Part shown: positions 3,589-30,274 of the stretch, piece by piece
How the letters are laid out: each line of letters begins with the position of its first letter
How positions within the stretch are numbered: position 1 is the first letter of the stretch
The notes under the pieces: generated by a model
What the model was told of the DNA's origin: nothing
Databases searched by the model: none
The model's input: only the letters and a program-made list of their open reading frames with translations
Made by a program: the position numbers and the translations under genes
DNA from: Pedobacter cryoconitis
Lineage (GTDB): Bacteria; Bacteroidota; Bacteroidia; Sphingobacteriales; Sphingobacteriaceae
Length of the DNA: 64,000 nucleotides
Reading direction: 5' to 3'
Assembly: GCF_014200595.1 (NCBI RefSeq)
Contig: NZ_JACHCG010000003.1
Coordinates: 472,084 to 536,083 of the forward strand

Positions 3589-4332
3589 TTAATTGGTCAC
3601 CTCTCTGATCAGTGCTTTAGCCAATACGGTTACAGAATCGATGATCAGGATGTTATCTTCTTCACTTTCTTTGATAATAAGTGATAACTCTGTGCATCCC
3701 AGGATGATCGCATCTACATTTTGCGCTTTAAAAAATGAAATTGCACGTCTGGATAAAAGTTCCGCCTCGGGAGTAATCACTGCATTTGATTTAATGCCGA
3801 TTTCAGGATCATAGATCATTTTATGAATAACATCATTCTGAAATTCAAACTCAGGTACCACCACTTCATACCCCAGCTGCAAGAGCAGGTCTTTATACAG
3901 TCCGGTTTTATAGGTACCATTGGTTGCCATAATACCAACTCTACGTACCTTTTTATGATAGTTTTGGATGTATTTGCAGGTTTCAAACGGCATATTCAGC
4001 AATTTAAGCTCACTGCTTAAAGCACTGGAGATGACATCAAAAATTTTCGGGGAGTGACAGGTATTACAAGCCAGTCCGATCACCGTAGCCCCAACTGCCT
4101 CCAGTTTTTTAATAATAGAAATGATATTATATGCAGGATTTGTAATCAGGTCGTTTTCTAAATATAAAGTTCTGTCGGTGATATCTTTGGGAAAAGACAT
4201 TAAAACGGCCGATAAATGCTGCTGGTCTGTCTTCGCTTTTGTTTCACATAAGATACTGTTAAACAATGCCACACCAGATTGAGGCCCCATCCCTCCTACA
4301 ATACCGATAACCTTTTCTTTAATCAGAGTCAT
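3589..4332 (-). CDS. Aspartate/glutamate racemase family protein
   Basis: This 247-residue protein is a cofactor-independent amino-acid racemase of the Asp/Glu/hydantoin racemase superfamily, near the usual size for the family. It opens with the family motif GIVGGMGPQSG (10-20). Both catalytic cysteines are present: C89 in LACNTC and C213 in LGCTELSL, so it should be active. The enzyme interconverts L- and D-forms in the cytoplasm, most often of Asp or Glu, although the YgeA branch acts on other amino acids. It lies between a secreted serine hydrolase (17-base gap) and the cupin gene (35-base gap). I infer that it supplies a D-amino acid to an adenylation domain, since only one epimerisation domain occurs in the window. 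A cell-wall role is also possible. Confidence 0.85.
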   Translation of the reverse strand: MTLIKEKVIGIVGGMGPQSGVALFNSILCETKAKTDQQHLSAVLMSFPKDITDRTLYLENDLITNPAYNIISIIKKLEAVGATVIGLACNTCHSPKIFDVISSALSSELKLLNMPFETCKYIQNYHKKVRRVGIMATNGTYKTGLYKDLLLQLGYEVVVPEFEFQNDVIHKMIYDPEIGIKSNAVITPEAELLSRRAISFFKAQNVDAIILGCTELSLIIKESEEDNILIIDSVTVLAKALIREVTN

Positions 4333-4349: not shown

Positions 4350-5789
4350 TTAATTGAGTCTTTTAAGGCATTCTTTGATCTGGCCTTCTACCTCAGTAGT
4401 ACCAGGATTAAGCAGCTTGCATTGTGTAAAATTTGCAAGGGCCGATTTATAGTCTTTCAGTCTGAAATCCAGCTTTCCTAATTCTAAGTAGGCTTCAGAT
4501 TTTTCAGGATGCCTCTTTCTGTTTTCTTCCATCAGCCTTTTCGCAACGGTTTTGTTATCCGAAGCAATGATCAGGGCAAGATTATTTAAGCTGGCGAAGG
4601 AGAGTTCTTTGTTTGAAGTATGTGCAACCTTATTAAACAGATTGTCTACGGGCCCAGTTCTGTAAATCCTTAATAAAGCAAGCGCAGGATCCGGGTAATG
4701 TTCGAAATCACTATCATCCAGTAGAGGATCAATATTCAGGTTGACAGATAATTCGTTTAGTTTATTCAGGATAGACATGCCCAGGCTGCTGTTGGTAAAG
4801 AACGCAACACCGCTTTTATTCTTTTTAGAATAGTATACCCAGGAACGGAAGCCGTCCTGAACACCATTCTGAAAAATAATAGTGTCACCCTGTGCGTATT
4901 GGAGACCAAATCCAGCTCCCCAATAGAGCAATTTCCCTTTATCACCCAAACCAATATCGCCATGTGTGATATCTTTTACGCGATCATCAGATAAGTATTT
5001 TCTATTAAAAATAGAAGTAATTAATGTCGCATAATCCTTGGCAGTGGTATGTATACCACCCGAAACCAGGACAGAATCATTTTTCCATTTTTTGATTTCT
5101 TTACCAAAAACAGTATATCCGGTTGCATAATTTTGAGGATAAGAGCCATCCTTTTCATATTTAGAGAAAGTCCGGTGCAATTGTAAAGGCTCATAAACCA
5201 ACTCTTTCAGATACGTATCAGCACTCTTTTTAAGGATAACTTCAATTACATTTCCAAGATAAACATAACCGGCGCTGGAGTAAACAAAGTCAGTACCGGG
5301 GGCAGCAACCAATTCCAGTACCTCCGCATTATTTTCTCTCTTATAATTTTCGATGCCAGAAGAATGACTTAAAATCATCCTTGCGGTAATCAATTTATAC
5401 CGGCTATCGTGCTGTAAAAGCGGATATTCAAGATATTCGTATAAGGGTTTATCCAGATCCAGTTTCTGCTGATCTGCCAGCTGCATAGCCACAAAAACCA
5501 GGAAGCTTTTGGATAAAGAACAGGCTTCAAATATAGTTTCAGGATCTGCCTGATCACTAACCAGCTGCGTTTTGCTTCCATACACATTGGAGAACACAAC
5601 CTGATCATTATTGATTATAGCCAGTGACAAACCGGGGATACCGATATCGGTAAGCATGTCATTCACCTGCTTATTAAATTGTTTAGTTTCGATAACCCTA
5701 TGGTTTGCTTTGAAAGTAGCCGTTTGCTGCGCATGTGCAGTGATGCAGCAAATTATAAGCGCAGCCAGCAAGAGATTAATTTTTTTCAT
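4350..5789 (-). CDS. Secreted serine hydrolase (class C beta-lactamase fold) with C-terminal TPR
   Basis: The start chosen is the ATG at 5789, giving 479 residues. It places a clean signal peptide (MKKINLLLAALIICCITAHA) first and lies 10 bases after the preceding stop; an in-frame ATG at 5831 would add 14 residues before that signal and overlap the upstream gene. The domain belongs to the beta-lactamase/D-aminopeptidase superfamily: nucleophile motif S91-L-S-K94, general-base motif Y170-S-S in FVYSSAGY, and a third motif reading QNGVQDGF where relatives usually have HxG. The C-terminal part (about 430-475) has TPR-like helices. It probably works in the periplasm. Paired with the peptidase-ABC fusion just upstream, it may trim or inactivate the product. 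A housekeeping peptidase role cannot be excluded. Confidence 0.82.
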   Translation of the reverse strand: MKKINLLLAALIICCITAHAQQTATFKANHRVIETKQFNKQVNDMLTDIGIPGLSLAIINNDQVVFSNVYGSKTQLVSDQADPETIFEACSLSKSFLVFVAMQLADQQKLDLDKPLYEYLEYPLLQHDSRYKLITARMILSHSSGIENYKRENNAEVLELVAAPGTDFVYSSAGYVYLGNVIEVILKKSADTYLKELVYEPLQLHRTFSKYEKDGSYPQNYATGYTVFGKEIKKWKNDSVLVSGGIHTTAKDYATLITSIFNRKYLSDDRVKDITHGDIGLGDKGKLLYWGAGFGLQYAQGDTIIFQNGVQDGFRSWVYYSKKNKSGVAFFTNSSLGMSILNKLNELSVNLNIDPLLDDSDFEHYPDPALALLRIYRTGPVDNLFNKVAHTSNKELSFASLNNLALIIASDNKTVAKRLMEENRKRHPEKSEAYLELGKLDFRLKDYKSALANFTQCKLLNPGTTEVEGQIKECLKRLN

Positions 5790-5799
5790 AACGATTGGA

Positions 5800-8700
5800 T
5801 TAAACCAGCTCAACGGCCGATAAATTTTCACTCACATATTTTTCTAACCGCCCTTGTTTCATTTTCATGATGTCATTGGCTACATCAAAATAATGGTCAT
5901 CATGCGTGATCGCTATGACGATTTTACCTAGTTTTTGCATATCAGGCAGTAATATTCTGTAGAAGAAGCTTCGGTAACCAGGATCCTGATCCGCAGCCCA
6001 TTCATCGAATAAATAAATTGGGGAATCTTCTAAATAACATTGCAGCAAGGCCAGTCTTTTTCTTTGTCCGCCGGATAAATCAATAGTACTATATCCTTTT
6101 TCACTGATTTCAACCTTTTCATCCAGGTTCAGGATCTTTAAATACTTGGCGATATCTGCCGCCTTATCATTAATGTTGATGTTGTATAACTTTTCAAACA
6201 GATAAGAAGGGCTGAACACAGTAGAAAAATATTCACCAAGCTGGCTGCCTGTTACCGGCTTATCATTGATCAGTATTCTTCCCTGATCCGGCTCATATAA
6301 ACCGGTGAGTAGTTTTGCCAGCGTAGTTTTACCACTTCCGTTAGCCCCTATGATAAATAATATCTCTCCTTTTTTAACTTCCAGTTCAATAGGGCCGACA
6401 CCAAAAGAATTCTTTTCATTTTTGTTTTTATGCTGATAGCTCACACCTTGCAGTTTGATGCTGTTCACTACTTTTTCCAGCGGTAATGGTTCTGCATAAA
6501 TGTCGAGCGTTGCCGGAATACCTGTCAGAAACTCCTGAACACGGTTCCATGCTATTTTCAATTGCATAATAGCAGGTACAGAACCCAGTAATTCATTGAT
6601 AGGCTTCATCAGGTACAGCAATATGATAACGAAGCTCATAATAGTAGAAGCATAAATTCCAGGGAAAATTTTAGGCAATGCAAACACAACTGTACCTAAT
6701 AACACCACCAGCAGAGACTCTCCGACCATACTTGCGTTGATAAACCGGACATTTGCAGTGGTCATTTTTTCCTTGAACTCATTGACAGTATGCGTTAAAT
6801 CTGCTTTATATTCCAGCTTTTTGTTCCGGTGCATACTAATTTCTTTGAAGCCATCCATTAAACCATTAATATGGTTCATAAAAACGTTACGTGTAGTCCA
6901 GGCTTCTTCAAAGTATTTGTTGGTGCTTTTACTCACCAGGTAGTAGAGCAGTGAAACGCAAAGAACCAGTACGATTGTCAGAATTGTAGCCCAGAAAGCA
7001 ATAGAAGCCAGGTAAATAAAGGTACCCAGAGCTGTAAATGTACTGGTAATCAGCATAACCAGCATATTGGTAGACTCACCAATCGTATTCACATTATCAT
7101 TAAGCGCAGTATAGATCTTTCCACGGTCTATTTTCTCAAAATTCTGATAATTGGTAGAAAAAAGTTTGTCAATAATCCGGATTCTCAATTCATAAACGAC
7201 ATTTCTGCTGATAGTCACCAGGTTAACCTGTACATACCTTCTTCCTAAAATATAGATGCAACAGGTTAATGCATAATAGAACAATAAATATTTCCACTGC
7301 GAATTGTCAACAGAAGAGGTAATTAACACAATGACCAGCATATTGGCTAAGCCAGAGAGGATACTCATCACTAAAATCTGAGGCAATTGATTTTTCAATT
7401 TGTCCTGTTCAGGAAACAGCAAACTGATGAAAAAAGCAAAAAAGCTAATGGCAATCGCACCCAAAACCAGTTGCGCCATTACCAGAAAACTAACTGGCGA
7501 CCATACTATAGCAGACTCCCAGGTGAAACCTGCCAAAGCCTTCGGCACCAGGTAGAGTGCAAAAAATATCGGAACAAGGCACAAAACAAAGAAGAAAAGC
7601 TGAGCAGATTTTTCACGGGTCAAGCCTTCAAATTTTCGCTTCTGTTTGAAAGCATCTATTCCTATTTTCCCCACAAATGCGACTACTAATAAGACATATC
7701 CTGCCAGCAGGAAAGTAACAAATGCATAAGTCTGATCACTCTTATCGACTTTTTCAAAATCTTTAGTTACTGGATCGCCTGCCAATATCCTGGTTACATT
7801 CTCCCCAATCAAAGTCGTAAAACTACTATTGGAATTTGCCAGTATCGCCAGTGCAGTATGCCCGGCGGTATTTAGGTTTACATAAGAAGTATAGTTTGGA
7901 TTTAACCCTTCATGATAAATATTACCTTTCCCATCCAGATTGACTTCCCAGCCCATTGCATAAGAAGACATTCCATGTAAGGGTACGGTCTGATCACGTT
8001 CATGGGTAGTATTAGCCAGTTCCTTTAATTCAGAATTTGTAGTGCCCAACTGAAATTCAAGCCATTTAGCCATATCAGTTGTATTGGAGATCACATAACC
8101 AGCTGCATTATTTCCTTTATAAACCGGTGCAGTATAAGGCCTTGCTTTATAGAATCCAATTTTATATCCTTTGGCCATCAACTCAGGGTCAGCAGGAATA
8201 CCAATCGAAGAATTAGCTAGCTGAAGCGTACCTATTACCTGGTTTTGGAGATAAGATTCAAAGGGCTGATGTGTTACTGTTTGTATAACACAGGCGAGAA
8301 TATCATAGTTGATCGTCGCATATTCAAATTTTTTGCCCGGTAAATTGCGCAAGTCCAGATCTACTGTTTTTCTAACAGTTTGTTCGAGCGAATTAGCAGT
8401 ATTACTTTCAGGGATGAGTGAAAGCGTTTGCCAGGAAATTCCACTGGTATGGTGTAACAACTGACGGATTGTAACTTTAGCCGCTTTGTCTTTATAGTTT
8501 ACTTTAAACCAGGGAATATAATCGGCTACATCAGCATCGAGCTTCAGTGAACCTGTTTTAGCGAGGTTTAAAACAGCGAGCGCAGTAAATGCCTTACTCG
8601 TAGACCCCAGCTGAAATAAAGTCTGTGCTGTAACCGGTATTTTTTTCTCCAGATCTGCATAGCCATAATTTCTGATGATCCGGTGCCCATCTTTCAGGAT

Positions 8701-8868
8701 GACCAGGCTCAGACCAGGAATTTTCCCGCGCTCCATCAGTGTAGTAACCTCCTGATCAATCTGATTGATCAGGACTTTATCTTCTTTTGTCTGAGCAAAA
8801 GAATAGCCAGGTATACCGCAGCTTAGCAGTATAGCAATAACAATACTTTTGACTTTAAAATTTCCCAT
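5800..8868 (-). CDS. Periplasmic serine peptidase fused to a peptide-export ABC transporter
   Basis: This 1022-residue fusion has a signal peptide (1-26, ending SFAQ) and a beta-lactamase-fold serine peptidase (about 30-360) with S89-T-S-K92, Y183-A-T and an H-E-G third motif. About three membrane helices follow (roughly 380-480), then a six-helix ABC transmembrane region (to about 780) and a nucleotide-binding domain. The latter has Walker A GANGSGKTTLAKLL, signature LSGGQRKRL, Walker B PIYLFDEWAADQD and the switch histidine in ITHDD. The ABC half resembles cyclic-peptide exporters (PvdE/SyrD type). Peptidase, three helices, then ABC half-transporter is the layout described for prodrug-activating peptidases such as ZmaM; ClbP and XcnG are simpler relatives. 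I infer that it exports the cluster product and cleaves it on the periplasmic side. Domain calls are firm; the prodrug role is a hypothesis. Confidence 0.9.
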   Translation of the reverse strand: MGNFKVKSIVIAILLSCGIPGYSFAQTKEDKVLINQIDQEVTTLMERGKIPGLSLVILKDGHRIIRNYGYADLEKKIPVTAQTLFQLGSTSKAFTALAVLNLAKTGSLKLDADVADYIPWFKVNYKDKAAKVTIRQLLHHTSGISWQTLSLIPESNTANSLEQTVRKTVDLDLRNLPGKKFEYATINYDILACVIQTVTHQPFESYLQNQVIGTLQLANSSIGIPADPELMAKGYKIGFYKARPYTAPVYKGNNAAGYVISNTTDMAKWLEFQLGTTNSELKELANTTHERDQTVPLHGMSSYAMGWEVNLDGKGNIYHEGLNPNYTSYVNLNTAGHTALAILANSNSSFTTLIGENVTRILAGDPVTKDFEKVDKSDQTYAFVTFLLAGYVLLVVAFVGKIGIDAFKQKRKFEGLTREKSAQLFFFVLCLVPIFFALYLVPKALAGFTWESAIVWSPVSFLVMAQLVLGAIAISFFAFFISLLFPEQDKLKNQLPQILVMSILSGLANMLVIVLITSSVDNSQWKYLLFYYALTCCIYILGRRYVQVNLVTISRNVVYELRIRIIDKLFSTNYQNFEKIDRGKIYTALNDNVNTIGESTNMLVMLITSTFTALGTFIYLASIAFWATILTIVLVLCVSLLYYLVSKSTNKYFEEAWTTRNVFMNHINGLMDGFKEISMHRNKKLEYKADLTHTVNEFKEKMTTANVRFINASMVGESLLVVLLGTVVFALPKIFPGIYASTIMSFVIILLYLMKPINELLGSVPAIMQLKIAWNRVQEFLTGIPATLDIYAEPLPLEKVVNSIKLQGVSYQHKNKNEKNSFGVGPIELEVKKGEILFIIGANGSGKTTLAKLLTGLYEPDQGRILINDKPVTGSQLGEYFSTVFSPSYLFEKLYNININDKAADIAKYLKILNLDEKVEISEKGYSTIDLSGGQRKRLALLQCYLEDSPIYLFDEWAADQDPGYRSFFYRILLPDMQKLGKIVIAITHDDHYFDVANDIMKMKQGRLEKYVSENLSAVELV

Positions 8869-11394: not shown

Positions 11395-13047
11395 CTATAC
11401 TGTTTTAATAAATGAAGAGAGCGGCAATTCACTGTACTGGAGTACTGAATCAATAAGTTTAAAGTAGATATTCAGCATCTCTTCTATTTTTTCTGCGGTA
11501 TAGATTTCCGTATTATATTGGATACTCAGAGAAACACAATTGGTATGTTCGCGGATCGTACATTTGAAATTAAAATGTCCGGAACCGAAATCGTCATGAT
11601 GAGGGGTAAGATCTTCTACTAAAAGATCTTGTGAGCTAATAAAGTTGAGTAAAACTGGCGATAAATCGTTCAGTTGAATATCCAGATCTTTCATGATCAT
11701 TTCATGCGCATAAAAACGATGATCGGCAGCTTCAAGCACGTTGTTGGTGACTGTTTTGACAAGATCTCTGATGGTCAGCTCCTCGTTCATCTCTACACAA
11801 GTAATGATTTCTGAGGTTAACCAGCCAATGATCGGTTCAAATTCTTTAAAGACCCTGGTGGTATAAGGCAGGCTGAACCTGACGCTTGCCAGCTCTTCAA
11901 CTTTGTGGAACAGTACTGCAAACAGCGCTGTAAAAGTCATATATAAACTGGATTCACATTGTGTAGAAAACTTCCGCAGCCGTTGCAATACAGGTGCCTG
12001 GATATAAGTCACAAATGAAGCACCTGGTTGCACATAGATATTGGTGATGGTACCTTCTGCTTCAAAAAACCGGTCTGTATCTGCTGTCAATAAGTATTTT
12101 TTAATTTCACTTTGCAGTTGTTGCCTGTAAGATTTTGCAGGACTTGAAATTAGCGCCGGATTTATGTTTTGGTGTTTAGCTTTACGTGCTTTATTCAGCT
12201 TGATACTTTCAGAGATCTTTTGGGTATAGAAGTTTTTAGATTTCAAGCCCTTCCCGCTTTGCAAAAAATCATTTACCCAGGCAGCATATTCTTTATATTG
12301 AAGTTTCAACGCAGGTAATGGATTGGGTTCTCCTTTTAGAAAGGCTTTATACAGCAGCTCAATTTCAGTTTTAAGTATTTTCACTGAAGCCTCATCTGCG
12401 ATGGTATGATGCAGGGTTACCGCTACGCCATGTATGTTTTCGGCATAGTCAACCATCGTGAAAGCCATTAATGGCTGCTTCTGAAAGTCAAATAAAATAT
12501 CGTAGGCCTGTGTACAAAGCTTTGCATTTTTAGCCTGTTCATCCTGTTCTTCCAACAGGTTCAGGTAACCAATTTCAAAATCGGCAGGGATCATATCATA
12601 TATTCCCTGATAGACCTTTCCATCAGACAAGACCATATAAGTTCTCAGGCTTTCATGACGTTCCACCAGGGTATTAATCACTTTGCGCATGATCTCAGTA
12701 TTTAATACTTCCACCTGAGTATAAAAATTCAGATTGTAAGCATATTTACCAATAATCAGGGAGCGTACATATTCCTTTCTTTGCTGATGTACAACTTCAT
12801 AAAAGTCCTTCTTATCTAATAAATTAAGCCCTGCTATTTCCTTTTTATCAAACCAGCAATCAGTTTGATCAGGATTATTACGGCCTTGTGCATTCTTTAT
12901 AAATGCAATCAGGGCTTCTTTATTCTGTCTGACCTCGGCCAGAATTTCAGTGCAGTCCAGCTGATGAGGCAGGTTTAATTTGAGCTGATCATCTACTACA
13001 TTGATTTCAATCTCCTTGCATTTCAGCTTATAAAGTAGTTTCTCCAT
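11395..13047 (-). CDS. Free-standing NRPS condensation domain with N-terminal docking domain
   Basis: This 550-residue protein has a TubC-like docking domain (about 1-52, with the INVVDDQLKLNLP strand pattern) and one condensation-family domain (about 80-540). The motif region reads VTLHHTIADEAS, so both histidines and the Asp of HHxxxDG are present but Gly is replaced by Glu. An insert rich in Lys and Ser lies around residues 270-330. There is no A or T domain. Its start overlaps the stop of the preceding synthase as ATGA, so the two are translationally coupled, and its docking domain fits the acidic tail of that protein. As the last synthase of the line, with no thioesterase in the window, it is the best candidate for chain release by attack of an amine or hydroxyl, possibly by cyclisation. 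It could instead be inactive or act in trans. Confidence 0.85.
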   Translation of the reverse strand: MEKLLYKLKCKEIEINVVDDQLKLNLPHQLDCTEILAEVRQNKEALIAFIKNAQGRNNPDQTDCWFDKKEIAGLNLLDKKDFYEVVHQQRKEYVRSLIIGKYAYNLNFYTQVEVLNTEIMRKVINTLVERHESLRTYMVLSDGKVYQGIYDMIPADFEIGYLNLLEEQDEQAKNAKLCTQAYDILFDFQKQPLMAFTMVDYAENIHGVAVTLHHTIADEASVKILKTEIELLYKAFLKGEPNPLPALKLQYKEYAAWVNDFLQSGKGLKSKNFYTQKISESIKLNKARKAKHQNINPALISSPAKSYRQQLQSEIKKYLLTADTDRFFEAEGTITNIYVQPGASFVTYIQAPVLQRLRKFSTQCESSLYMTFTALFAVLFHKVEELASVRFSLPYTTRVFKEFEPIIGWLTSEIITCVEMNEELTIRDLVKTVTNNVLEAADHRFYAHEMIMKDLDIQLNDLSPVLLNFISSQDLLVEDLTPHHDDFGSGHFNFKCTIREHTNCVSLSIQYNTEIYTAEKIEEMLNIYFKLIDSVLQYSELPLSSFIKTV

Positions 13048-16000
13048 CAGATAGTTACCTCCAATTTATCCGATCCATCAATTTCAATTTCATCTGCTTT
13101 ATTCAGCCATAGATTGACATCAATATACTCGGCCATCAACTTGATGTTTAGGCGCTTAAATACTTCTTTTAAGGGGAATTCCACATGCAGTTCTTTAAAG
13201 ATGCAATTGATCAGTTCGAGTGCTTTTAAAGAGTGTCCCCCAAGTTCAAAGAAATTTGAGGTGATGCCAATCCTTTCTTTCTCCAGTTTTAAGACCTCTG
13301 CCCATATTTCAACCAGTTTTTCTTCTGTGATACCCGAAGGTTTCTCGTAAGTATTAACTGTTGTAATTTCGGGATCAGGCAATGCTGCCCGGTTTAACTT
13401 GCCATTGGCTGTAACCGGCATCGCATCCAGGCGAATAAAATAAGCGGGAATCATATATTCCGGCAACTCTGCTGCTAAATAACCTTTCAGGTCTGAAATA
13501 TCATTTTTAGCTATATAGTAGGCTACTAAGTTTTTATCTCCCTCTTTTTCTTTAACAATTACGGCCGCTTTCTGAATCAATTCATGTTTAGAGAGTTGAT
13601 TTTCAATTTCCCCCAATTCAATACGGAATCCTCTGATCTTAACCTGATCATCAATACGGCCGAGATATTCAATATTACCGTCTTCAAGCCATCTGGCCAG
13701 GTCTCCGGTTTTATATAAACGCTCTGCTGCGTTTAATGGATTGATAATAAATTTTTCAGCAGTAAGCGCTGGGTTATTAACATAACCCCTGGCTAATCCT
13801 ACCCCTGAGATACATAACTCCCCAGCTATTCCAACTGGTAACAATTGATAGTTTTTATCCAGTACATGTAACTTGATATTATCAATAGGTTTACCAATCG
13901 GCACGCAGGTTAACTGCTCATCAGATTGACAATCAAAATAACTTACATCAACAGTCGCCTCTGTCGGGCCATATAAATTAACGAGTTTGGTATTAGTTTG
14001 CTGATAAACGATCTGATTGAACCTATTAGCTAGTTGTACTGGTAAAGCTTCTCCGCTGGCAAAAACATATTTTAAGGTTTTTAACCTGGTTATACTAAAG
14101 TCTTCTCTGTTTACATATCTCAGAAAGATATTCAGCATAGAAGGCACAAAGTGCATGACAGAAACTTTATTTGGCACAATCGCATCAACGATAGTCCATG
14201 GGTTCTTTTCTCCTTCAGGTTCCAGCATGATTAATTTAGCACCCATCATCAGCGGCCAGAAGAGTTCCCAGACAGAGACGTCAAATGTAAAAGGCGTTTT
14301 CTGTAAAATAACGTCTTCATTGGTAATCGGATAGGCTTTCTGCATCCAGTTGATCCTGTTGACCAGAGATTCGTGCGCAATAGCTACTCCTTTTGGACGT
14401 CCTGTTGATCCTGAGGTATAAATCACATAAGCGATATCCTTTGGAGTGGCCAGGTTCATGAATTCTACTGCTTCAGTATCCATATCCAGCTGTACAAGAT
14501 CAATAACCTCCGGTCCTTCTCTAAAGTTATAGACAAATACAGTTTCGGTGAGCAGCAGTTTTACAGCCGCATTTTCAAGAATATATTTATTTCTCTCTTC
14601 CGGATTGTTGGTATCAATTGGCAGATAAGCATGTCCTGCTTTCAGAATTCCCAAAATACCGATCATCATCTCGAAGGAGCGTAATACGGCAATACCAATC
14701 ACGGCATTCTGACCAGGTACTTTTTTCCGGAGATAATCAGCCAGTACCGTAGATTTCCTGTCCAGCTCTGCATAAGTCAATTCTTTAGCATCAGTTACTA
14801 CAGCCACGCGTTCAGGATATTTAATTACATTTTCCCTGAACAGGTCAATAATTGTTTTTTCAGCAGGAAAAACCGCATCTGTATGGTTAAACTCGTGGAT
14901 TAACCTGGCAGATTCCTGTGCACCAATCAAGCTTTCTGCTCTTAATTCAGTTTGATAGTTGTCCGTAAAGAAGTTTAAGATATTCAGATAAACTTCGTTG
15001 AATTTATGCACAAGCTCATTGCTGATGAATGAAGAGACATAGGCATAACTGATCGAACATCCTTCATGATCTTTTTTAATATTTACATCAAATAAAGTAT
15101 GTCCTCTGATATAGTTATCAACTTCAAGCGTTGATTCATCTTTACTTTCTTTTTGTAAGCGTAATTCATAAGAAGAGTGGAAATCAGTATAATTGAAGAG
15201 TATATCTGAAATCGGATTTTCTGTGTACTCAGCCGCACCCAGCGCCCTGTTAATATTAAACAGGGATGCTCTGTCATAAGGTTTGATTTCAAGCAATTTA
15301 CGCTCTACTGTATCGAGCAGATTTTGACTGGTCATGCCATTTTCAAACTTCAACCGCACTGGAATAGTGTTTAAGAAGTTACCAAACACTTTTTCACCAT
15401 CTTCTCCGATAGAACGGTTAAAGGTAACCATACCGGTCGTGATGTCACTTTCATAATTCAGTGTGCTCACTGTATAAGCAAAGGCTGCAAAAAACAGATT
15501 CTTTAAGCTGTTATTTCTCTTTTCGGCCAGCAGCTGAAGTTTATCATACAATACACTTTCTATTGGGCTGCGTAATGATCTGTATTCTTTTTTATTGCTG
15601 TTTATACCGAATGATACTTTTTTAAATCCTTCCAGTTCTTTGCTCCAGTAGTTGAGATTATCCGGGTTTTTCTCATAGACCAGTTCTTCAGTGATAAAGT
15701 TTCTGTAATTGCTTTGCAGCAATTCAGGTTTATACTGATGATCCTCAACAAGTTCGATATAAGTGTTGTTCAGCTCATTTAAGAAAGTGGAGATACTCCA
15801 TCCATCGCTGATCGCGTGGTGGTTATCAAAGGTCATAAAATGTTCATTATGGCCTAATTTATAAACCCCCATCTTCCAGAGCGGAGCAGTTGTCAGGTCA
15901 AAACTTTCGTTTCTCGCTGTGGTCATTGCTGCGCTGATCAGCTCTTGTTGCTCCTCTTTTGATAAGTCACTGAGATCTGAATAAGGCAAATGGATAGGTA

Positions 16001-19000
16001 CTTCTTTGTAAACAATATGGGCAAATTCATTCAGATCAAAAGCTGTTCTGAGTGCCGAGTGTTTTTCAGTAAGTAGTTGCAGGGCCTTTTTAACCAGTTC
16101 ATGGTTAAAGTTTTCATAATAGATTGGCCAGGCCAGTTGTTCATAGTACAACACATCTTCAGGATGTTTCATTTGCACAAAACACATTCCTTTTTCAATG
16201 TTGCTCATCGGGTAAACAGCCTCAATTCTTGCATCTGGATTTTTACCGAGGTAATTCTCCTGGAATGATTTAAGTTCTGCGTCTGCTTCCTGATAGTATT
16301 GTTTATCACTATCAGATTTAACACCAGCTACAAATTCTGATAGCTGTTTAATAGTTTGATGATTGTATAAATCAATTATTCTGATCCTGACCGCCAGTTC
16401 TTTATTAACCAGGTTGATTAAGCGTATTGCTTTGATAGAGTCTCCGCCAACGGCAAAGTAATTATCTGTAATTCCGATGCGGGAAAGATTAAGAATCCTC
16501 ATCCAGATTTCACTAAGCTTCATTTCATTCAGCGTGGTCGCTGGCACATAATCTTTTACCAGGTCAATTTGTGGTGCAGGTAATCTGGAAGTATCAATTT
16601 TACCGTTAACCGTGAGCGGCATTTGCGCAATCCTGATAAAGTAAGAAGGAATCATATACAGCGGAATACTTTCTGCCATAATACTTCTCAAATGTGCCGG
16701 GGCTATTTCTGTATCAGCAATGTAATAGGCAGTTAAATAAGGTTCCCCGTTATTTTCCTGATGTACTACTTTAGCCTCCCTGATAAACCTGTATTTGATC
16801 AGTGCATTTTCAATTTCCCCAAGTTCAATTCTGAAACCTTTCAGCTGAATCTGGTTATCCAGTCTGCCTTTATATTCCAGTTCTCCGGTAGCCATTAAAC
16901 GAACACCATCTCCGGATTTATAAAGCCTGTCGCCTTCCTGAAAAGGGTTATTGATAAAGCGCTGATGCGTGAGTTCGACATTATTGATATAACCTCTGGT
17001 TACTCCTTTACCACCAACATACAGTTCTCCCGAAAAACCTTCGGGCACTATATTCATATCCTTATCCAGAATATAACCGGACAGTGCTGGCAATGGTTTA
17101 CCCACATTACTGATCCCCGCAGCTATATCCTGTAAAGTGATTTCTTTATAAGTATTGTGAATGGTTGTTTCTGTAATGCCATACATATTGATCAGCTTTG
17201 CAGCCGGATATTTATTGGCCCAGTAAGCTAGTTTTCTGACATTTAACTGCTCACCTGCAAAGATGATATATCTGAGTTTTAGTTGTACATCATGTTCTTC
17301 CATTTCCTGTTGCATCAGGTTGTAAAAGGCAGTAGGCGTCTGGCATAAAACGGTAACTTCCTTTTCTTTAATGATATTCAGGAATGCTTCAGGATCGATA
17401 CTGTCTTGTTTAGATACAATGACCAGTTTACCACCATATAACAGCGAACCATACATTTCCCACACGCTGACATCAAAGCAATATCTATGGAACATGGTCC
17501 ATACATCGGTCGGATTAAAGTCAAACTGGAACTGTTCATTGGCCAGAATACTCATCAGGTTACCGTAGTTCACCATCACCCCTTTCGGCCTTCCGGTAGT
17601 ACCAGAAGTATAAATAATATAACACAAATTAGTATTGCTTCTTGCAATCAGCGGATTATAGCGGTCTGTTGATTTACCCAAAAATGTATTGGTGTAAATT
17701 CTTTCCACAGTAGTATCCAGCCTGTCTGACAAATCGGTTGTGGTGATCAGCAGTGAGGTTGCAGAGTCTTCCAGCAACAGTTTATTTCTTTCTTCGGGTG
17801 CATCAATATCCAGGGGCAGATAGGCTCCTCCTGCTTTGATGATGGCCAGAATACTGATGATCATATCTATTGAGCGATCAATAAACAGGGCAACTATCGT
17901 GTTAGCTTTAACGCCTTTATTGATTAAGTCGTGACTGAGCTGATTTGCTTTTGCATTCAGCTCTTTGTAAGTCAGGCTGGTTCCATAACAGTCTACAGCA
18001 ACAGCATCCGGAGTTTGACTCACCTGCGCTTCAAAAAGGTCTACTACTGTTTTATCCACAGGGTAATCCACATTTGTATAATTCAGTTGCTGTAGTAATT
18101 TTGCTTTCTCAGCTGCTTGCACAAATTCCAGCTTAGCAAGCTGCATTGCCGGGTTAACCGCCACTTGTGAAATCAGACATCTAAAGGCGTCAATAAATTT
18201 CAGTATGGTATCCGTACTAAAAAGACTGGTAGAATATTCAAATTGGAAAGATAGATTTTCCTGAGCCTGTACAGCAGTTAAGCTGATATCAAACTTGGAA
18301 ACAGGTCTGCTAAACTGATAAGGTTGTAATTCCATACCAGGTATTTTAAGTTCCGCTGCGCCGAAATTCTCAAAAGAAAATACTGCTTCAAACAGCATGT
18401 TATGACTGGTATTGCGATCAATCTTCAGGTCATCGACTAAGGAATCATAAGTATAATCCTGGTTATCAAAACAAGTCAGCACTTTATTTTTCACATTGGA
18501 CAGAAACTCCTTAAAGCTGAATGTGCCTTCCAGATTATTTCTTATCGGAACGATGTTAACAAACATTCCAATCAGGTTTTCCAGATCACTGTGTGTACGT
18601 CCTGCGGATGGAACTCCAACTACGACATCCTCCTGCCCGCTTAATTTACACAACAAGATATTGTATAAGGAAAGCAAGAGCATGAACATTGTACTGCCTT
18701 CTGCCTCTGCAATAGCTTTCAATTGAGCCGATTCACTACTGCTGATTTCAAAATGGATCACGTTACCATCATAATCTTTTACAGCCGGACGGGTATAGTC
18801 CGCTGGTAATTCAAGTGCTTTTACAGGTGTTGCAAATTCATTCAGCCAGAAATCTTTCTGTCTGGATATATTTTCTTTCTGCAAATCGCCATGCTGCCAT
18901 TCAGCAAAGTCTTTATATTGTATTTGTAAGGGTTGTAACTCTTCATCATTGTACAAGGACATAAAGTCTTTGATCAAAATACCCTGTGATACACCGTCCG

Positions 19001-22000
19001 AAATAATGTGGTGCATATCAAGCATCAGCAGATGACTATCCTGAGCCAATTCAATAATCCCTACCCTGATCAACAGGTCATTATTCAGGTCAAAAGGTTT
19101 TACAAATTCCTGAATCAGCTGGTCCGTAGTTTTTTCACCAGGCTGGAAATAGTCGACACCAAAGTTAACCTGCTCAGCAATTTGCTGCATAGGCTCTTCG
19201 TTAGTGAGCTGGAAAGTTGTTCTCAGACTTTCATGTCTTTCAATCAGTTTATTAAATACGCTGGTTAGTTTGTCTCTATCCAGCTTACCGTTAAGTGTAA
19301 CGGTCTGTAGCATATTATAAGCGAGTGAATTTTTATCAAATTCATAAAGGAAGTATAAACGTCTTTGTGCAGAACTTAAATGATAAAGGTCTTTTTCTGG
19401 TGATTTTGTAATCGCTGTATAACCGGTTTCTTCCTGCCCCTCTTTAAGCAGTTCAATATATTCAGCCAGTTTTTTGATAGTAGCATGATTGAAAAACTCT
19501 TTGATGGAAATATTTACCTGGTATACTTTGTGTAAACGGGCAACCATCGTTAATGCTTTCAGGGAATCACCTCCTATTTCAAAGAAATCGTCTGTTGCAA
19601 GGATATCATTTTTACCAAAAAAGTCTTTCCATATTTCTACCAGTTCTTCCAGCATTGGTTTGCTGGTTGTATGATTTTCTGTAGTCAGCAGAAGTTCCTG
19701 AGTAACAGCAGAAGCCTGTTCATCCGTATAGGCGGGTTGGTTCTCGTTAATCATTCCTGTTATCATTTTGAAAGCATCCACATTTACGGGATAAGCTATT
19801 TTATCAAATGAATAAGCAGGTAAGGCCATTTTTTGTCTTTGTTCATCCTGATAATAAGCTGCCCAGTCGATGTCTATTCCTTGCTGCCACAGTTCTCCCA
19901 TTCCTTTGAGCACTTGTTTCTGGTCCTGATGTACTTGTGCAGCGCTGCTGATCATACTGATCACTTTGTGCTGACGGGTGCGGCTCTGGTGAGAACGTAC
20001 AAAAGTAGAAAGTGCGTTTCCTGGCCCTAATTCGATAAAAACCGCCTGTTCCTGTTGCAGGATATGTCCGGCGCCTGCACTGAAGCGGACTTCATTTCTC
20101 AGGTGTTTCACCCAGTAAGCCGGGCTTCCCATTTCACTATCCTTTGCTGGCTCACCAGTCAGGTTAGAGATCACCGGAATTTGTTGCGGTTTAAAATTAA
20201 TGCCTTCAAATGCTTTTTCGAACTCCGCTAAAATCCCATCCATCATCCACGAATGAAAGGCATGGGAAGTATGCAATACTTTATTTTTATAACCTGATGT
20301 AGTGAGTTTAGTTGCAAAGGCCATCAAAGGTTCTTCTTCACCAGAAACCACACTTAAACTGCTGCTATTGACTGCCGCAAGAGAAATCGCAGGCTCGTCT
20401 TTTAACAAGTCTCTTAATTCCGGTTCTGAGATTGAGACACTTAACATCTGACCCTTTTTTACCTGCTGCATTAAAGCTCCACGCTTAATCACCAGTTTCA
20501 AAGCATCTTCCATGCTCAACACCCCACTGATACAGGCAGCTACATATTCACCTATGCTGTGTCCGATCAGCATTGCAGGTTTAATTCCCCAATGCAATAA
20601 CAAACAGCTCAATGCATACTCCATGATAAAAAGAGCAGGCTGAGCATAACAAGTATCATTGATATTCAATGCACTGGTTCCTTCCGGATAAATTACCGCC
20701 TTCAGATCCATGTTTGACTGTTTAGCCGCAATTGCGAAACACGCATCTGCTGCGGAACGAAAAACAGCTTCATTTTCGTAAAGCTCCTGGTACATTCCGG
20801 TATATTGTGAGCCCTGACCACTAAACATGAATACCAGTGGTTGTTTACCAGCGGAAACAGCCTGTAAATGAAGTTCATCTTCGTCTAAAGCTTCTAATGC
20901 TTCATCGGCTGTACTGCAAACCAGACTTTTACGGTAATTGAAATGCGAACGGCCTGTTTGAAGGGTATAAGATAGGTCCGCTAATTTAGCATCCGGGTGC
21001 TGTGTAAAGTAAGTTTTATATTTTTCAAGGTTGCGTTTCAACGCTTCCTCATTCTTTCCTGAAAATAATAATAAGTGTTGTTCACGTCCTGCATCCGAAG
21101 CCACAGCTTCAGGCGCCTCTTCCAGAATGATATGCGCATTCGTACCACCGATACCGAATGAGCTTACCCCTGCACGCAATGGATATTGAGTACTTTCCCA
21201 ATTCCTTAAAGTGGTATTCACATAGAAAGGACTTGCCTGGAAATCAATTTTAGGATTCGGAGTTTTATAATGAAGACTTGGAGGCAACTGACGATGTTTA
21301 ATCGACAATACAGCTTTGATTAATCCAGCAATCCCCGCAGCTGAATCCAGGTGACCAATATTTGTTTTTACAGAACCAATGGCACAATATTGACGTTTAT
21401 CGGTATTGAAGGCTTGTTTCAGGCCTTCTATTTCTATCGGATCACCCAAATTAGTTCCAGTACCGTGCGCTTCAATCATTCCGATACTTTCTGGTTCTAC
21501 TTTAGCCCATTTTTGAGCCATCATAATCACCTCAGTCTGGCCGTCAACAGAAGGTGCGGTATAGCTGACTTTATGATTGCCGTCGTTGTTAATACCGCCT
21601 CCTTTAATGATAGCCCAGATATGATCTCCATCTTTAATGGCATTCTTTAATGTTTTCAGGATCACTACACCTGCTCCTTCACCACTGATCGTTCCATTGG
21701 CATCCGCGTCAAACGCTTTGCAATGTCCGTCTTTAGAGTGGATCATTCCTTCGGTATATTTATATCCTTTTTCAGCTTTATTCGTGATTCTTACCCCACC
21801 TGCAATTGCAATATTACAGTCCGCAAATAATAAACTTCTACAGGCCTGATGAACGGCAACCAGTGAAGTCGAACAAGCGGTATCCAGAAAAACCGAAGGG
21901 CCTTTTGAATTCAGGAAATAAGATAATTTAGTGGTTAGAAACCGGGCGTTACTTACTTGTGAAGCCGTATAGTCATCTACCAGGCCTTCTTTATTAATCA

Positions 22001-22406
22001 GCTCTGAATAGACCTGCCAGTTCACATTGGTCGCTGCCCCGGCAAAAATGCCAACTTTGTTCTTTTCATCATTTACATTAACCGCAGCATCTTCCAGCGC
22101 TTCCCAAACACATTCATGAAAAATCCGCAGTTGCGGATCCATCATTCTGGCTTCATTAGGTCTGTAATTAAAAAACGAGGAATCAAAGTGGTTTTTGTCC
22201 TTGATAAAGCTATTTGCTTTTACATACAATGGGTCGTCTATAACGGACTGATCTTCACCGGAATTTTTCAGTTGCTCATCAGTAAAAAAGCTTACTGATT
22301 CCACTCCATTTTTCAGATTATTCCAAAAAGTTTCCAGATCATTTGCTCCGGGAAATCTGCCAGACATTCCTATAATAGCGATTTCTAATCCTGTGTACTC
22401 TTTCAT
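13047..22406 (-). CDS. Hybrid PKS-NRPS synthase, KS-AT-ACP-C-A-T-C-A-T
   Basis: This 3119-residue trimodular synthase has KS (5-430; C178 in DTACSTSLVA, EAHGTGT, NIGHLD), AT (about 525-830; S617 in GHSIGE, HAFH motif typical of malonyl-CoA), ACP (S948) and no ketoreductase. Then come C (about 985-1420, HHIISDG), A (about 1465-1940), T (near 1989), a divergent C (about 2040-2500, NHHAISDG, opening YPMSNIEKGM), A (about 2530-3010) and T (near 3059). The first A code reads DVWCIAMIHK, Thr-like except for Cys where Thr domains have Asn, so its substrate is uncertain. The second reads DVWHFSLVDK, a Ser code. The PKS module should add a C2 unit left as a beta-ketone. The start is one base after the preceding stop. 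The tail (DEIEIDGSDKLEVTI) is acidic and suits the docking domain of the next protein. Confidence 0.95.
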   Translation of the reverse strand: MKEYTGLEIAIIGMSGRFPGANDLETFWNNLKNGVESVSFFTDEQLKNSGEDQSVIDDPLYVKANSFIKDKNHFDSSFFNYRPNEARMMDPQLRIFHECVWEALEDAAVNVNDEKNKVGIFAGAATNVNWQVYSELINKEGLVDDYTASQVSNARFLTTKLSYFLNSKGPSVFLDTACSTSLVAVHQACRSLLFADCNIAIAGGVRITNKAEKGYKYTEGMIHSKDGHCKAFDADANGTISGEGAGVVILKTLKNAIKDGDHIWAIIKGGGINNDGNHKVSYTAPSVDGQTEVIMMAQKWAKVEPESIGMIEAHGTGTNLGDPIEIEGLKQAFNTDKRQYCAIGSVKTNIGHLDSAAGIAGLIKAVLSIKHRQLPPSLHYKTPNPKIDFQASPFYVNTTLRNWESTQYPLRAGVSSFGIGGTNAHIILEEAPEAVASDAGREQHLLLFSGKNEEALKRNLEKYKTYFTQHPDAKLADLSYTLQTGRSHFNYRKSLVCSTADEALEALDEDELHLQAVSAGKQPLVFMFSGQGSQYTGMYQELYENEAVFRSAADACFAIAAKQSNMDLKAVIYPEGTSALNINDTCYAQPALFIMEYALSCLLLHWGIKPAMLIGHSIGEYVAACISGVLSMEDALKLVIKRGALMQQVKKGQMLSVSISEPELRDLLKDEPAISLAAVNSSSLSVVSGEEEPLMAFATKLTTSGYKNKVLHTSHAFHSWMMDGILAEFEKAFEGINFKPQQIPVISNLTGEPAKDSEMGSPAYWVKHLRNEVRFSAGAGHILQQEQAVFIELGPGNALSTFVRSHQSRTRQHKVISMISSAAQVHQDQKQVLKGMGELWQQGIDIDWAAYYQDEQRQKMALPAYSFDKIAYPVNVDAFKMITGMINENQPAYTDEQASAVTQELLLTTENHTTSKPMLEELVEIWKDFFGKNDILATDDFFEIGGDSLKALTMVARLHKVYQVNISIKEFFNHATIKKLAEYIELLKEGQEETGYTAITKSPEKDLYHLSSAQRRLYFLYEFDKNSLAYNMLQTVTLNGKLDRDKLTSVFNKLIERHESLRTTFQLTNEEPMQQIAEQVNFGVDYFQPGEKTTDQLIQEFVKPFDLNNDLLIRVGIIELAQDSHLLMLDMHHIISDGVSQGILIKDFMSLYNDEELQPLQIQYKDFAEWQHGDLQKENISRQKDFWLNEFATPVKALELPADYTRPAVKDYDGNVIHFEISSSESAQLKAIAEAEGSTMFMLLLSLYNILLCKLSGQEDVVVGVPSAGRTHSDLENLIGMFVNIVPIRNNLEGTFSFKEFLSNVKNKVLTCFDNQDYTYDSLVDDLKIDRNTSHNMLFEAVFSFENFGAAELKIPGMELQPYQFSRPVSKFDISLTAVQAQENLSFQFEYSTSLFSTDTILKFIDAFRCLISQVAVNPAMQLAKLEFVQAAEKAKLLQQLNYTNVDYPVDKTVVDLFEAQVSQTPDAVAVDCYGTSLTYKELNAKANQLSHDLINKGVKANTIVALFIDRSIDMIISILAIIKAGGAYLPLDIDAPEERNKLLLEDSATSLLITTTDLSDRLDTTVERIYTNTFLGKSTDRYNPLIARSNTNLCYIIYTSGTTGRPKGVMVNYGNLMSILANEQFQFDFNPTDVWTMFHRYCFDVSVWEMYGSLLYGGKLVIVSKQDSIDPEAFLNIIKEKEVTVLCQTPTAFYNLMQQEMEEHDVQLKLRYIIFAGEQLNVRKLAYWANKYPAAKLINMYGITETTIHNTYKEITLQDIAAGISNVGKPLPALSGYILDKDMNIVPEGFSGELYVGGKGVTRGYINNVELTHQRFINNPFQEGDRLYKSGDGVRLMATGELEYKGRLDNQIQLKGFRIELGEIENALIKYRFIREAKVVHQENNGEPYLTAYYIADTEIAPAHLRSIMAESIPLYMIPSYFIRIAQMPLTVNGKIDTSRLPAPQIDLVKDYVPATTLNEMKLSEIWMRILNLSRIGITDNYFAVGGDSIKAIRLINLVNKELAVRIRIIDLYNHQTIKQLSEFVAGVKSDSDKQYYQEADAELKSFQENYLGKNPDARIEAVYPMSNIEKGMCFVQMKHPEDVLYYEQLAWPIYYENFNHELVKKALQLLTEKHSALRTAFDLNEFAHIVYKEVPIHLPYSDLSDLSKEEQQELISAAMTTARNESFDLTTAPLWKMGVYKLGHNEHFMTFDNHHAISDGWSISTFLNELNNTYIELVEDHQYKPELLQSNYRNFITEELVYEKNPDNLNYWSKELEGFKKVSFGINSNKKEYRSLRSPIESVLYDKLQLLAEKRNNSLKNLFFAAFAYTVSTLNYESDITTGMVTFNRSIGEDGEKVFGNFLNTIPVRLKFENGMTSQNLLDTVERKLLEIKPYDRASLFNINRALGAAEYTENPISDILFNYTDFHSSYELRLQKESKDESTLEVDNYIRGHTLFDVNIKKDHEGCSISYAYVSSFISNELVHKFNEVYLNILNFFTDNYQTELRAESLIGAQESARLIHEFNHTDAVFPAEKTIIDLFRENVIKYPERVAVVTDAKELTYAELDRKSTVLADYLRKKVPGQNAVIGIAVLRSFEMMIGILGILKAGHAYLPIDTNNPEERNKYILENAAVKLLLTETVFVYNFREGPEVIDLVQLDMDTEAVEFMNLATPKDIAYVIYTSGSTGRPKGVAIAHESLVNRINWMQKAYPITNEDVILQKTPFTFDVSVWELFWPLMMGAKLIMLEPEGEKNPWTIVDAIVPNKVSVMHFVPSMLNIFLRYVNREDFSITRLKTLKYVFASGEALPVQLANRFNQIVYQQTNTKLVNLYGPTEATVDVSYFDCQSDEQLTCVPIGKPIDNIKLHVLDKNYQLLPVGIAGELCISGVGLARGYVNNPALTAEKFIINPLNAAERLYKTGDLARWLEDGNIEYLGRIDDQVKIRGFRIELGEIENQLSKHELIQKAAVIVKEKEGDKNLVAYYIAKNDISDLKGYLAAELPEYMIPAYFIRLDAMPVTANGKLNRAALPDPEITTVNTYEKPSGITEEKLVEIWAEVLKLEKERIGITSNFFELGGHSLKALELINCIFKELHVEFPLKEVFKRLNIKLMAEYIDVNLWLNKADEIEIDGSDKLEVTI
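19801..21500 (-). repeat. Near-identical KS(C-terminal half)-AT segment, copy 1
   Basis: About 1.7 kb of the 13047-22406 synthase, from the KS region after the EAHGTGT motif through the whole AT domain. It closely matches 61437-63120, with one small length difference in the linker before the AT. The KS N-terminal half outside this block is much less similar between the two genes. Confidence 0.85.
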
Positions 22407-22407
22407 C

Positions 22408-25400
22408 TTAGTTAATTAAATTATTTATCAGATCTAAATTAGCGTGTGCTTCATCTAGTGTTTTATCAATGTTTACGGCCATCTTTTTCACGTCTTGTTC
22501 ACCTTGTGCTATAAAAGCTTCTATACTTTTTATAGTCGGTAAGCCGAACATTTTTGCGACTGAGATATGGCATTTAAATTCTTCAGATACCACTCTGGAT
22601 AAGGTTAAAATATTAATGGAGTGACCACCGAGTTCAAAGAAATTAGCATGGATACTAATCAGGTTTTTATCAATTTTCAAGATACCAGACCAGATTTGTA
22701 TTAATTTCTCTTCTATTTCATTGGTGGCTGCTGTATATTCCTCTTTGAATTGAATTTGTGGTTGTGGTAATGCTTTTCTATCCAGTTTACCACTCGTGGT
22801 GAGTGGTAATTTATCCAGCTGTACATAGCATGACGGAATCATATAAGGGGGAACCTTTTCTGACAGATAGTTCACTAAAAGGCTTTGTTCAATTGCTGCT
22901 GATGACACATAATATGCGACCAGGTATTTTGTATCTCCATCTTCTTTGAGCAGGACTACGGGTTCCTGTAGTCCCGGATAGTTTTGCAGGTGACTTTCGA
23001 TCTCTCCGCAATCGATCCGGTAACCTCTGAGTTTGACCTGAAAATCGATCCTTCCGGTATAAGCAATTTCTCCCGTTTCCTGCCAGTAAGCGACATCACC
23101 TGTTCTATAAAGACGTGCTCCGGGTTCCCATGGGTTAGCGATGAATTTCTGTGCAGTCAGCTCTTCGCTGTTCAGATAACCTCTGGCCAGTCCAACTCCT
23201 GCAATACAGAGTTCACCATTTACACCTTTTGGAACCAGCTTGTTATATTGATCCACAATATATAAGCGGATATTATCAATTGGCCTGCCGATAGGGATGA
23301 GCGTATTGGTGGCCCCAAAATCTATTTCGTGATAACTAACATCAACTGTAGCTTCAGTAGGGCCATATAAATTGATCAGCCTGCTGCCATTGGCCTTATG
23401 CATTGTCTTTTTGAAACCTTGTACTTGTTCAGGTTTCAGCGCTTCTCCACTGGCAAATACTTTATTTACACTGGCTACTTTTTTAAGTATAGGCTCTTTG
23501 TCCAGAAATTGCAGAAATGCTTGCAACATGGGTGGTACAAAGTGAAGTACCGTAATCTTATTAGCTGCGATCTCTGAAATCAGTTCTTCTGGCTCTTTTT
23601 CTGCCCCGGGACGTAAAAGGCATAAAGAGGCTCCGGTAAATGACCACCAGAAAAGTTCCCAGACCGACACATCAAATACAACAGGGGTTTTCTGAAGCAG
23701 GACATCAGTTTCATTGATCGGGTACATCTTTTGCATCCATATCAGCCTGTTAACTACCGAATGATGTTCAATCATCACCCCTTTAGGTACGCCTGTTGAG
23801 CCAGAAGTATAAATTACATAGGCAAGACTGGTACTGCATTGCGGAGGTCTTACAGCGGCTGTTTGTTGGTTGATTTCAATTTCACGGTCATCCAGATCAA
23901 CTATTTTTCCTGCTATAACAATGTCTTTATCCTGATAATAACGACCACGGCTGATCAGCGCACTGATCCCCGAAACCGAAATAATGGCATTGATCCGGTC
24001 TGCGGGTGAGTGTGGGTCAATTGGCACATAGGCTGCACCCGCTTTCAATATCCCATAAATGGATAACATCAGGTATTCTTCTCTTTCCAATAAGATTCCG
24101 ACCAGTTCGCCGGGTTTTACCCCCGTAACACCACCCAAATACGTTGCAAACTGATCGGTTCTCTTACTAAATTCTTTATAACTCAGGGTACCCGAAGCAC
24201 AGCGCAGGGCGATATGGTCTGGTGTCTTCTCTGCTTGCTCCTGAAATAAATCGATCAGCGTTTTATCTTGCGGATACGGTACTGTAGTATGATTAAATAT
24301 TTCTAATTGTTCTTTTTCTTCTTCTTCACTCAGCAAGTTGATAGCGGAAAGCACCGTGTTTGTATCTGCCAGAACCGCAGCAGCGATCCGCTGAAAATAG
24401 GCGACATAACGGCTAATTCTTTCGTGGCTGTACAATGCAGTGCTATAATCAAATTGTAAGTGTAACATTCCATCTCCAGGGCGTGCCGACAAAGTCAGAT
24501 CGAACTTGGAAATATGATGCCCGCCATCAAGCCTGCTGATTTTCAGACCAGGCAGTTCCAACCCTTCGTTCTCAAAGTTCTCATAAGAGAACATCACATC
24601 GAATAAAGGATTACGGCTGGTATCGCGGTCAATTTTCAGGCTGCTCACCAGGTCTTCATACTGATATCCCTGGTTGTCAAAACATTGCAAAGCAACCTGT
24701 TTCACTTCTGACAGATAATCGCGGTAAGTCTTAGTTCCTTCGGGATAACTGCGCAGCGCAAGCGTATTGGCAAACATGCCCATAATTCCTTCCAGATCTG
24801 CATGTTCACGACCCGCAACCGGACTGCCAACAACCACATCGGCCGTATTGCCTAGTTTCCCTAACAGGATGTTATAAAATGATAACAGGATCATGTACAT
24901 CGTAGCTCCTTCAGATCCACCTAATTGATGTAATCCACTAGTTACTGTACTATCTAATGTAAAACTGATACAATCCCCTTCATGCTGTTTAACCTGTGGA
25001 CGCGGATAGTCTGAAGGCAAGTTCAATTGGTTAGTTTCTGCCGCATAAGCAGCTAACCAGAATTCTTTTTGAGTGGCCAGTACGTTCTGTCTGGCTTCAC
25101 TTTGCTGCCATTCCGAATAGTCTTTGTATTGAATAGCTAAAGCTGTAAGGTTCAGACCTTGATAAAGCTGCATAAAATCCTGAACCAGCAGGCCGTTGGA
25201 AACCCCATCGGTTACAATATGGTGCAGATCAATAGCCAGTACATGTTCGGTATTGCTGATGCTGATCAATTCTGCGCGTAAAAGCGGGCCGGACTGAAGA
25301 TCAAAAGGCTGAACAAAATCAGCCAGTCTTGTAGTTAATTCTCTTTTAGCTGATGCTTTGAGGTCCGTATAAATCAGTTCGAAATTACTTTCTTCCAGGA

Positions 25401-26943: not shown

Positions 26944-26991
26944 AACTGTTTATTTAAGGATAGTCTGAGCAGCTGTTGCGTGCAGAAATGA

Positions 26992-30144: not shown

Positions 30145-30274
30145 AATTTGCTGTTTATTGAATTTGAGCGGAAGAAAATAAAGGGCAAAGGCAGGCCTGA
30201 CCCCTCTTTATGCTGATGAGTTTTTGATGTTGATTCTGAAAATTATTGTGGGTTTTGCGGGGAGGTTTACAGGG

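Follow-up and report, generated by a model that had tools for sequence, protein, structure and literature searches.

What is a serine peptidase doing in one chain with a peptide exporter, next to a nonribosomal peptide synthetase (NRPS) and polyketide synthase (PKS) assembly line? The question is raised by a gene at 5800..8868 on the minus strand of a 64,000-nucleotide stretch of the Pedobacter cryoconitis genome (contig NZ_JACHCG010000003.1, positions 472,084 to 536,083), hereafter the window, for which open-reading-frame calling gives an ATG start and a product of 1022 amino acids (aa). The answer that we favor, at a probability of about 0.9, is that this protein is a fused prodrug peptidase and ATP-binding cassette (ABC) half-transporter, and that the cluster would make an N-acyl-D-Asn-capped peptide-polyketide to be uncapped on export.

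After an N-terminal hydrophobic stretch, read as a signal peptide from hydropathy and an AlphaFold model, the chain carries a periplasmic S12 peptidase domain (residues 37-349; 7822..8760, minus strand), which PF00144 matches at 200 bits against a Pfam cut-off of 27. There follows a three-helix membrane domain (residues 376-484; 7417..7743, minus strand), in which hydropathy and the model place helices at residues 376-407, 418-446 and 459-484, ahead of the ABC helices, and in which a linker helix (450-456) bears W450 and W456. The C-terminal part is an ABC half-transporter (residues 498-1010; 5839..7377, minus strand), matched by the NCBIfam family TIGR01194 (cyclic peptide export ABC transporter) at 361 bits against a cut-off of 286. 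The original prediction, which saw a peptidase, about three helices and an ABC half-transporter in one chain, is thus borne out by PF00144, the helices and TIGR01194. The C-terminal fusion of the ABC half-transporter is the feature of the ZmaM-type subgroup.

The peptidase and membrane parts resemble ClbP, the colibactin prodrug peptidase. When solved structures were searched with phmmer, full-length ClbP, inclusive of its membrane domain, aligned to residues 43-475 of the fusion (E-value 1e-48); on the peptidase part alone 4gdn, a soluble flp/FmtA-like structure, scores slightly above ClbP. In a Foldseek search with the AlphaFold model, ClbP entries take ranks 1-6 (TMt 0.84-0.89), the full-length ones first, with 7mdf reaching an E-value of 2e-26. 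The catalytic serine, lysine and tyrosine are intact as S89, K92 and Y183, S89 having been correctly named beforehand; the pocket residues Q86, T185, N253 and N323 correspond to ClbP positions 92, 188, 257 and 331, and W450 and W456 to ClbP W460 and W466. Prodrug peptidases are set apart by S/T188, H/N257, N331, W460, W466 and, less strictly, E92, with Asn331 strictly conserved and Glu92 highly yet not strictly so (PMC9889268). The fusion accordingly has Asn at 331, a Ser/Thr-type residue at 188, a His/Asn-type residue at 257 and both tryptophans. These signature residues, the ClbP alignment and the Asn-type leader enzyme described below all support the ClbP/ZmaM/XcnG-type reading first proposed from the DNA.

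The signature is widely kept among relatives. The catalytic triad, T188, N257, N331 and both tryptophans are present in all of the best 120 of 684 homologues, in which position 92 is Glu in 78 and Gln in 42. Among 35 distinct full-length fusions (open frames >850 aa, with repeats of one genome counted once, and leaving out L066, L070 and loci where the match is confined to the ABC part), the triad, S/T188, N257 and N331 are kept in 35/35; two from Paenibacillus (L059, L061) have Tyr in place of W466, and seven, all of them from Bacteroidota, have Gln at 92. L070, from a Clostridia metagenome-assembled genome (MAG), is a 516-aa frame with Gly at 188. The best 120 of 222 shorter homologues, fragments included and some incomplete, contain one with Asn at 188, two without the catalytic Ser (P0143, P0220) and eight with another residue at W460 and W466 kept. 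Conversely, 18 S12 paralogs were fetched from the same genome, of which four gave no BLAST match, and the signature is found in none of the 14 that could be aligned.

A prodrug peptidase of this type calls for an enzyme that lays down the cap, and the original prediction had expected a starter condensation-adenylation-carrier-epimerization (C-A-T-E) module encoded upstream of position 64000. An NRPS gene is cut by the end of the window, beyond which the genome sequence continues. Inspection of the upstream genes did uncover a D-residue leader about 7 kb beyond the window, as the first NRPS gene of the same minus-strand run, which reaches extended coordinate 78052: a 2141-aa enzyme encoded on the minus strand at C3:542972-549397 (L010:6889-13314; 70889-77314 in extended window numbering). 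The expectation thus held for the D-Asn-type module and failed for its start: a fatty acyl-AMP ligase (FAAL) domain and a carrier precede the C domain, giving FAAL-T-C-A(Asn)-T-E instead of a starter C-A-T-E. The FAAL domain matches NCBIfam PRK09192 (fatty acyl-AMP ligase) at 428 bits, under the cut-off of 600; the A domain has the Asn-type code DLTKIGEVG(K), and the E domain retains the motifs HHLLVDGLSW and RTLGWFT. From its domain order and code we predict that the leader enzyme is the module for acyl-D-Asn. The same type of code recurs in all 21 distinct full-length FAAL-T-C-A-T-E leaders (18 with DLTKIGEVG, two with DLTKVGEVG and one with DLTKIGEIG), eight of which come from Pedobacter, ten from Chitinophaga and the rest from Fulvivirga, Aquimarina and a Rikenellaceae MAG.

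Hence, we propose the following course of events. The FAAL domain would activate a carboxylic acid, fatty or other, and load it on the adjacent carrier; the C-A-T-E module would couple the acid to Asn and epimerize the residue to acyl-D-Asn, which the downstream NRPS and PKS proteins would elongate to the full inactive precursor. The ABC half-transporter part, probably as a dimer, would flip or move this precursor across the inner membrane, and the fused layout would pass it directly to the periplasmic cutter. There, the S12 domain (S89/K92/Y183) may hold the acyl-D-Asn cap between T185 and N323 of its pocket and W456 of the three-helix domain and cut after D-Asn; the active product would thus be freed in the periplasm and never meet the cytoplasm.

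The Gln86 pocket bears on the nature of the cap. In ClbP the E92Q exchange keeps activity on D-Asn and gains activity on D-Asp in vitro (PMC9889268). It is therefore conceivable, though unlikely, that the enzyme with Gln86 is adapted to an acyl-D-Asp cap or accepts one equally well, a version that would be compatible with capping and export as proposed above. It could draw in two further genes of the cluster as related: an amino acid racemase (3589..4332, minus strand; TIGR00035 over its cut-off) and an Asn synthase-like gene (30275-32131) within the assembly line. Against it, racemase genes also stand beside Glu-type fusions (L048, L152, L156, L160), and the leaders of Gln- and Glu-type peptidases share Asn codes. 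For this last reason we take Gln86 to be a tolerated, perhaps relaxed, pocket residue and not a switch of cap; a D-Asp leader tied to Gln86 was likewise discarded as the principal account.

If the leader lays down what the peptidase removes, the two should travel together. Among 145 Pedobacter genomes (top five candidates per genome scored for the fusion and top two for the leader), the same seven have a full-length fusion and a full-length leader, one of them with two of each, and five further genomes have partial NRPS matches only; the corresponding p of 4e-12 ignores kinship and is not used as evidence. A class sample of 395 genomes (top two candidates for each search) gave two genomes with fusion and leader, both also counted among the seven from Pedobacter, and a third with a partial leader match only. 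Out of 79 Chitinophaga genomes (top ten candidates for the fusion, five for the leader), 12 have the fusion, and a full leader is found in ten of these 12 and in none of the 67 others. The leader and fusion genes share contig and strand in 7/8 Pedobacter pairs and 8/10 Chitinophaga pairs. Of the genomes behind other fusion loci, eight (G099-G105, G107) have a full leader; an Aminicenantes MAG (G106) encodes a FAAL-less C-A(Asn)-T-E protein (L132), and in Longitalea (G109) the match is confined to the ABC part.

Two Chitinophaga genomes depart from the usual pairing. In the first (G617) the fusion is closer to the Firmicutes kind (35% identity), and a 1500-aa open reading frame for C-A(DLTKIGEVG)-T-E without FAAL lies about 100 bases from it. 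In the second (G590, locus L202) the frame is open and the ABC part conserved, while the peptidase part has other residues in place of S, K, Y, T188 and N331; the surroundings of this dead-peptidase fusion, out to about 20 kb, yielded no Asn module. Judged by their predicted domains, both exceptions fit the pairing of leader and peptidase. The latter locus also provides a precedent for an account in which the ABC part alone works and the peptidase domain is a relic in the P. cryoconitis cluster too; with triad, pocket and tryptophans intact in the window copy and the leader present, we consider this hardly credible, the least probable of the alternatives.

The layout itself is not a chance product, because 684 proteins match the fusion at E<=1e-10 (7994 candidates scored) and all of the best 120 of these have both PF00144 and PF00005. 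In a tree of 60 rows, the window protein falls among the fusions, within a group of Bacteroidota plus one Aminicenantes MAG (support 100/97); the fusions join unfused prodrug-type relatives, including one from Xenorhabdus, at 99/95. Outside lie SerH2, a further S12 hydrolase encoded in the cluster, and the 18 S12 paralogs sampled from this genome. L176, an unfused Paenibacillus protein without the signature, is at the edge of this group; the fusions are not monophyletic (four changes), and long branches are seen for several paralogs and for the Xenorhabdus sequence. The peptidase phylogeny proposed as a check thus places the domain with fusions and prodrug-type relatives, in a tree whose rows do not include ClbP, ZmaM and XcnG by name. 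An unrelated esterase or a housekeeping S12 enzyme is rejected on the strength of this tree and the pocket residues. Plasmid spread was also considered and rejected: a tblastn search of 72,556 plasmid records gave 75 records with a match, in none of which the match reached 80% query coverage; the best 25 of the 75 concern the ABC half only.

S12 peptidases in NRPS clusters can also act in resistance or clean-up, and the peptidase might then destroy the finished product, in the manner of D-stereospecific resistance peptidases, which break down a finished peptide at a D residue. The gene for SerH2 (4350..5831, minus strand), which adjoins the fusion gene, could be cited in favor of such a role, even if SerH2 itself would suit it better than the fusion. 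The pairing with an Asn/E leader enzyme, the conserved acyl-D-Asn pocket and transmembrane tryptophans, and the fusion to an exporter all speak against it, and we regard it as highly improbable.

Several observations weigh against the acyl-D-Asn prodrug reading and temper our confidence in it. The AlphaFold model is of only moderate quality (mean pLDDT 75, pTM 0.56, from a 20-row alignment), and the residue at ClbP position 92 is Gln86 rather than Glu, a position that we do not treat as defining. Among solved structures the leader FAAL domain comes closest to McyG and 6ulw, and fatty-acid ligases rank below these, so that the acid that it loads may be a fatty acid or another carboxylic acid. 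The passage on Asp/Asn domains in PMC12283262 makes the DLTKIGEVG code also compatible with Cya-3. Nor are Asn codes rare: DLTKIGEVG occurs in 9/66 A-domain rows of the two exceptional Chitinophaga genomes (from loci chosen for likeness, some of which overlap). G590, moreover, has Asn C-A-T modules without E at a distance of about 25-50 kb from the dead fusion and, >1 Mb from it, an open reading frame that encodes C-A(Asn)-T-E on its own. Leader and fusion are on different contigs in three genomes (G570, G100, G540), and in a Bacteroidales MAG (G108, L046) the fusion, on a contig of 5.5 kb, is intact, with no full leader among the 31/34 candidates scored. Finally, absences of leader or fusion are not exhaustive, because few top candidates were scored per genome.

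How does the system compare with those already known? ZmaM, EdeA and PamJ (of zwittermicin, edeine and paenilamicin) are peptidase-ABC fusions and, like the window protein, combine in one chain of about 1,100 aa an S12 peptidase, a ClbP-like membrane part and an ABC half-transporter within NRPS clusters (PMC9889268). These are Firmicutes proteins, compared here by description, with a pocket Glu where the window protein has Gln86; Firmicutes fusions from the genome contigs align with the window protein over nearly the whole length at 34-40% identity (best segment). Their leaders differ too, being 1490-1526 aa C-A(DLTKIGEVGK)-T-E enzymes without FAAL, with the starter C assigned by position, as against the 2084-2198 aa FAAL-T-C-A-T-E of Bacteroidota. 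Such a FAAL-less Asn leader is found in 6/8 Firmicutes fusion genomes queried (L178-L181, L183, L185), and the other two (G550, G557) gave no leader match at the cut-off. A Pseudoalteromonas leader match (L184) has a different code; Tengunoibacter has four leader matches, of which the sole one decoded (L188) is not Asn; and the Xenorhabdus genome queried gave no leader match at the cut-off. ClbP aligns over the length of the peptidase and three-helix domain and has in common with the fusion the triad, N331, S/T188, W460 and W466, whereas its E92 and H257 are Q and N in the fusion; ClbP and XcnG/AmiB (xenocoumacin, amicoumacin) lack the ABC domain that the window protein has. FAAL-initiated lipopeptide synthetases likewise have FAAL-T feeding a C-A-T module, and the 13 other FAAL-T-C-A starts that we fetched all have non-Asn codes. 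In FAAL-initiated lipopeptides the acyl group stays on the product, unlike in the present system, where we predict its removal.

Already known are the peptidase family, its fused layout and the logic of an acyl-D-Asn cap. As far as our searches reach, the phylum, the FAAL-primed leader as the usual partner and the natural case of a dead peptidase are new. The main text of PMC9889268 names Firmicutes, Proteobacteria and Actinobacteria as phyla with prodrug peptidases and does not contain "Bacteroid"; "prodrug" is absent from the main texts of two papers on Bacteroidota biosynthetic gene clusters. Our literature search found no account of the system in Bacteroidota, which is weak evidence of novelty given that subscription papers were mostly outside its scope. 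More tentatively, and as a whole more doubtful than probable, one could envisage a Bacteroidota-wide prodrug branch, with a FAAL-primed leader, a peptidase-pump, a relaxed Gln86 pocket, a second cut by SerH2 for either maturation or disarming, and at least one lineage that dropped the leader step and kept the pump. In practical terms, the fusion together with FAAL-T-C-A(Asn)-T-E offers a sequence handle for self-toxic, and hence perhaps potent, products of Bacteroidota. Acyl-D-Asn boronate inhibitors made for ClbP are reported to inhibit ZmaM (PMC9889270); inhibitors of this type could expose capped precursors in Bacteroidota with no need for genetic manipulation. For the evolution of cap specificity and of the requirement for a cap, ready tests would be provided by the natural division into Glu and Gln forms and by the relative with a dead peptidase.

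As for the neighboring genes, SerH2 is predicted to be secreted, with no membrane domain seen, and its true start is likely the ATG just past the stop of the fusion gene. It belongs to a separate clade (100/100 in the 60-row tree) that keeps an EACSLSK-like motif, and it recurs beside fusions in Pedobacter, Chitinophaga and Aquimarina; an N331-like Asn is present in the other six aligned proteins and missing from the window copy. With the window excluded, SerH2 is near the fusion in at least 7/14 distinct Bacteroidota fusion loci (one as a piece at the locus edge) and the racemase in at least 8/14; short flanks at five loci make both of these minimum counts. A racemase gene also stands once beside a fusion in Paenibacillus (L060).

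Upstream of the fusion gene come a DUF6734 gene inside the cluster (8895-9806, minus strand) and a gene of glycosyltransferase family 20 (9843-11363, minus strand), OtsA-like and under the NCBIfam cut-offs. The remaining assembly line occupies 11395..63994 on the minus strand, with NRPS A and C domains within 10 genes of the fusion, and its first gene crosses the window edge and reaches 67159 in extended numbering. Of the A-domain codes read across the cluster, the one to which we assign a residue is that of the leader. The last protein of the line is a free-standing, condensation-like one (11395-13047, minus strand) with the motif HHTIADE, on which Pfam finds no thioesterase; for this reason the product may be released there by condensation with an amine. 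Upstream of 67159 lie SbnB-like and SbnA genes, a gene for a biopterin-dependent aromatic hydroxylase-like protein, the leader gene and a thioesterase gene. SbnA is over and SbnB under the NCBIfam cut-off; such genes also occur near other fusions (L044, L053, L073) and suggest 2,3-diaminopropionate. The hydroxylase-like gene (L010:5983-6798, minus strand) and a 246-aa gene (L010:5233-5973, minus strand) stand between the leader gene and SbnA. In a Rikenellaceae MAG (L066:9824-12957), two overlapping frames together encode the fusion, which may reflect a genuine split or a frameshift. The genome of the window also has another NRPS locus, at about 996-1044 kb of G000:C1, with an open frame of 11203 aa.

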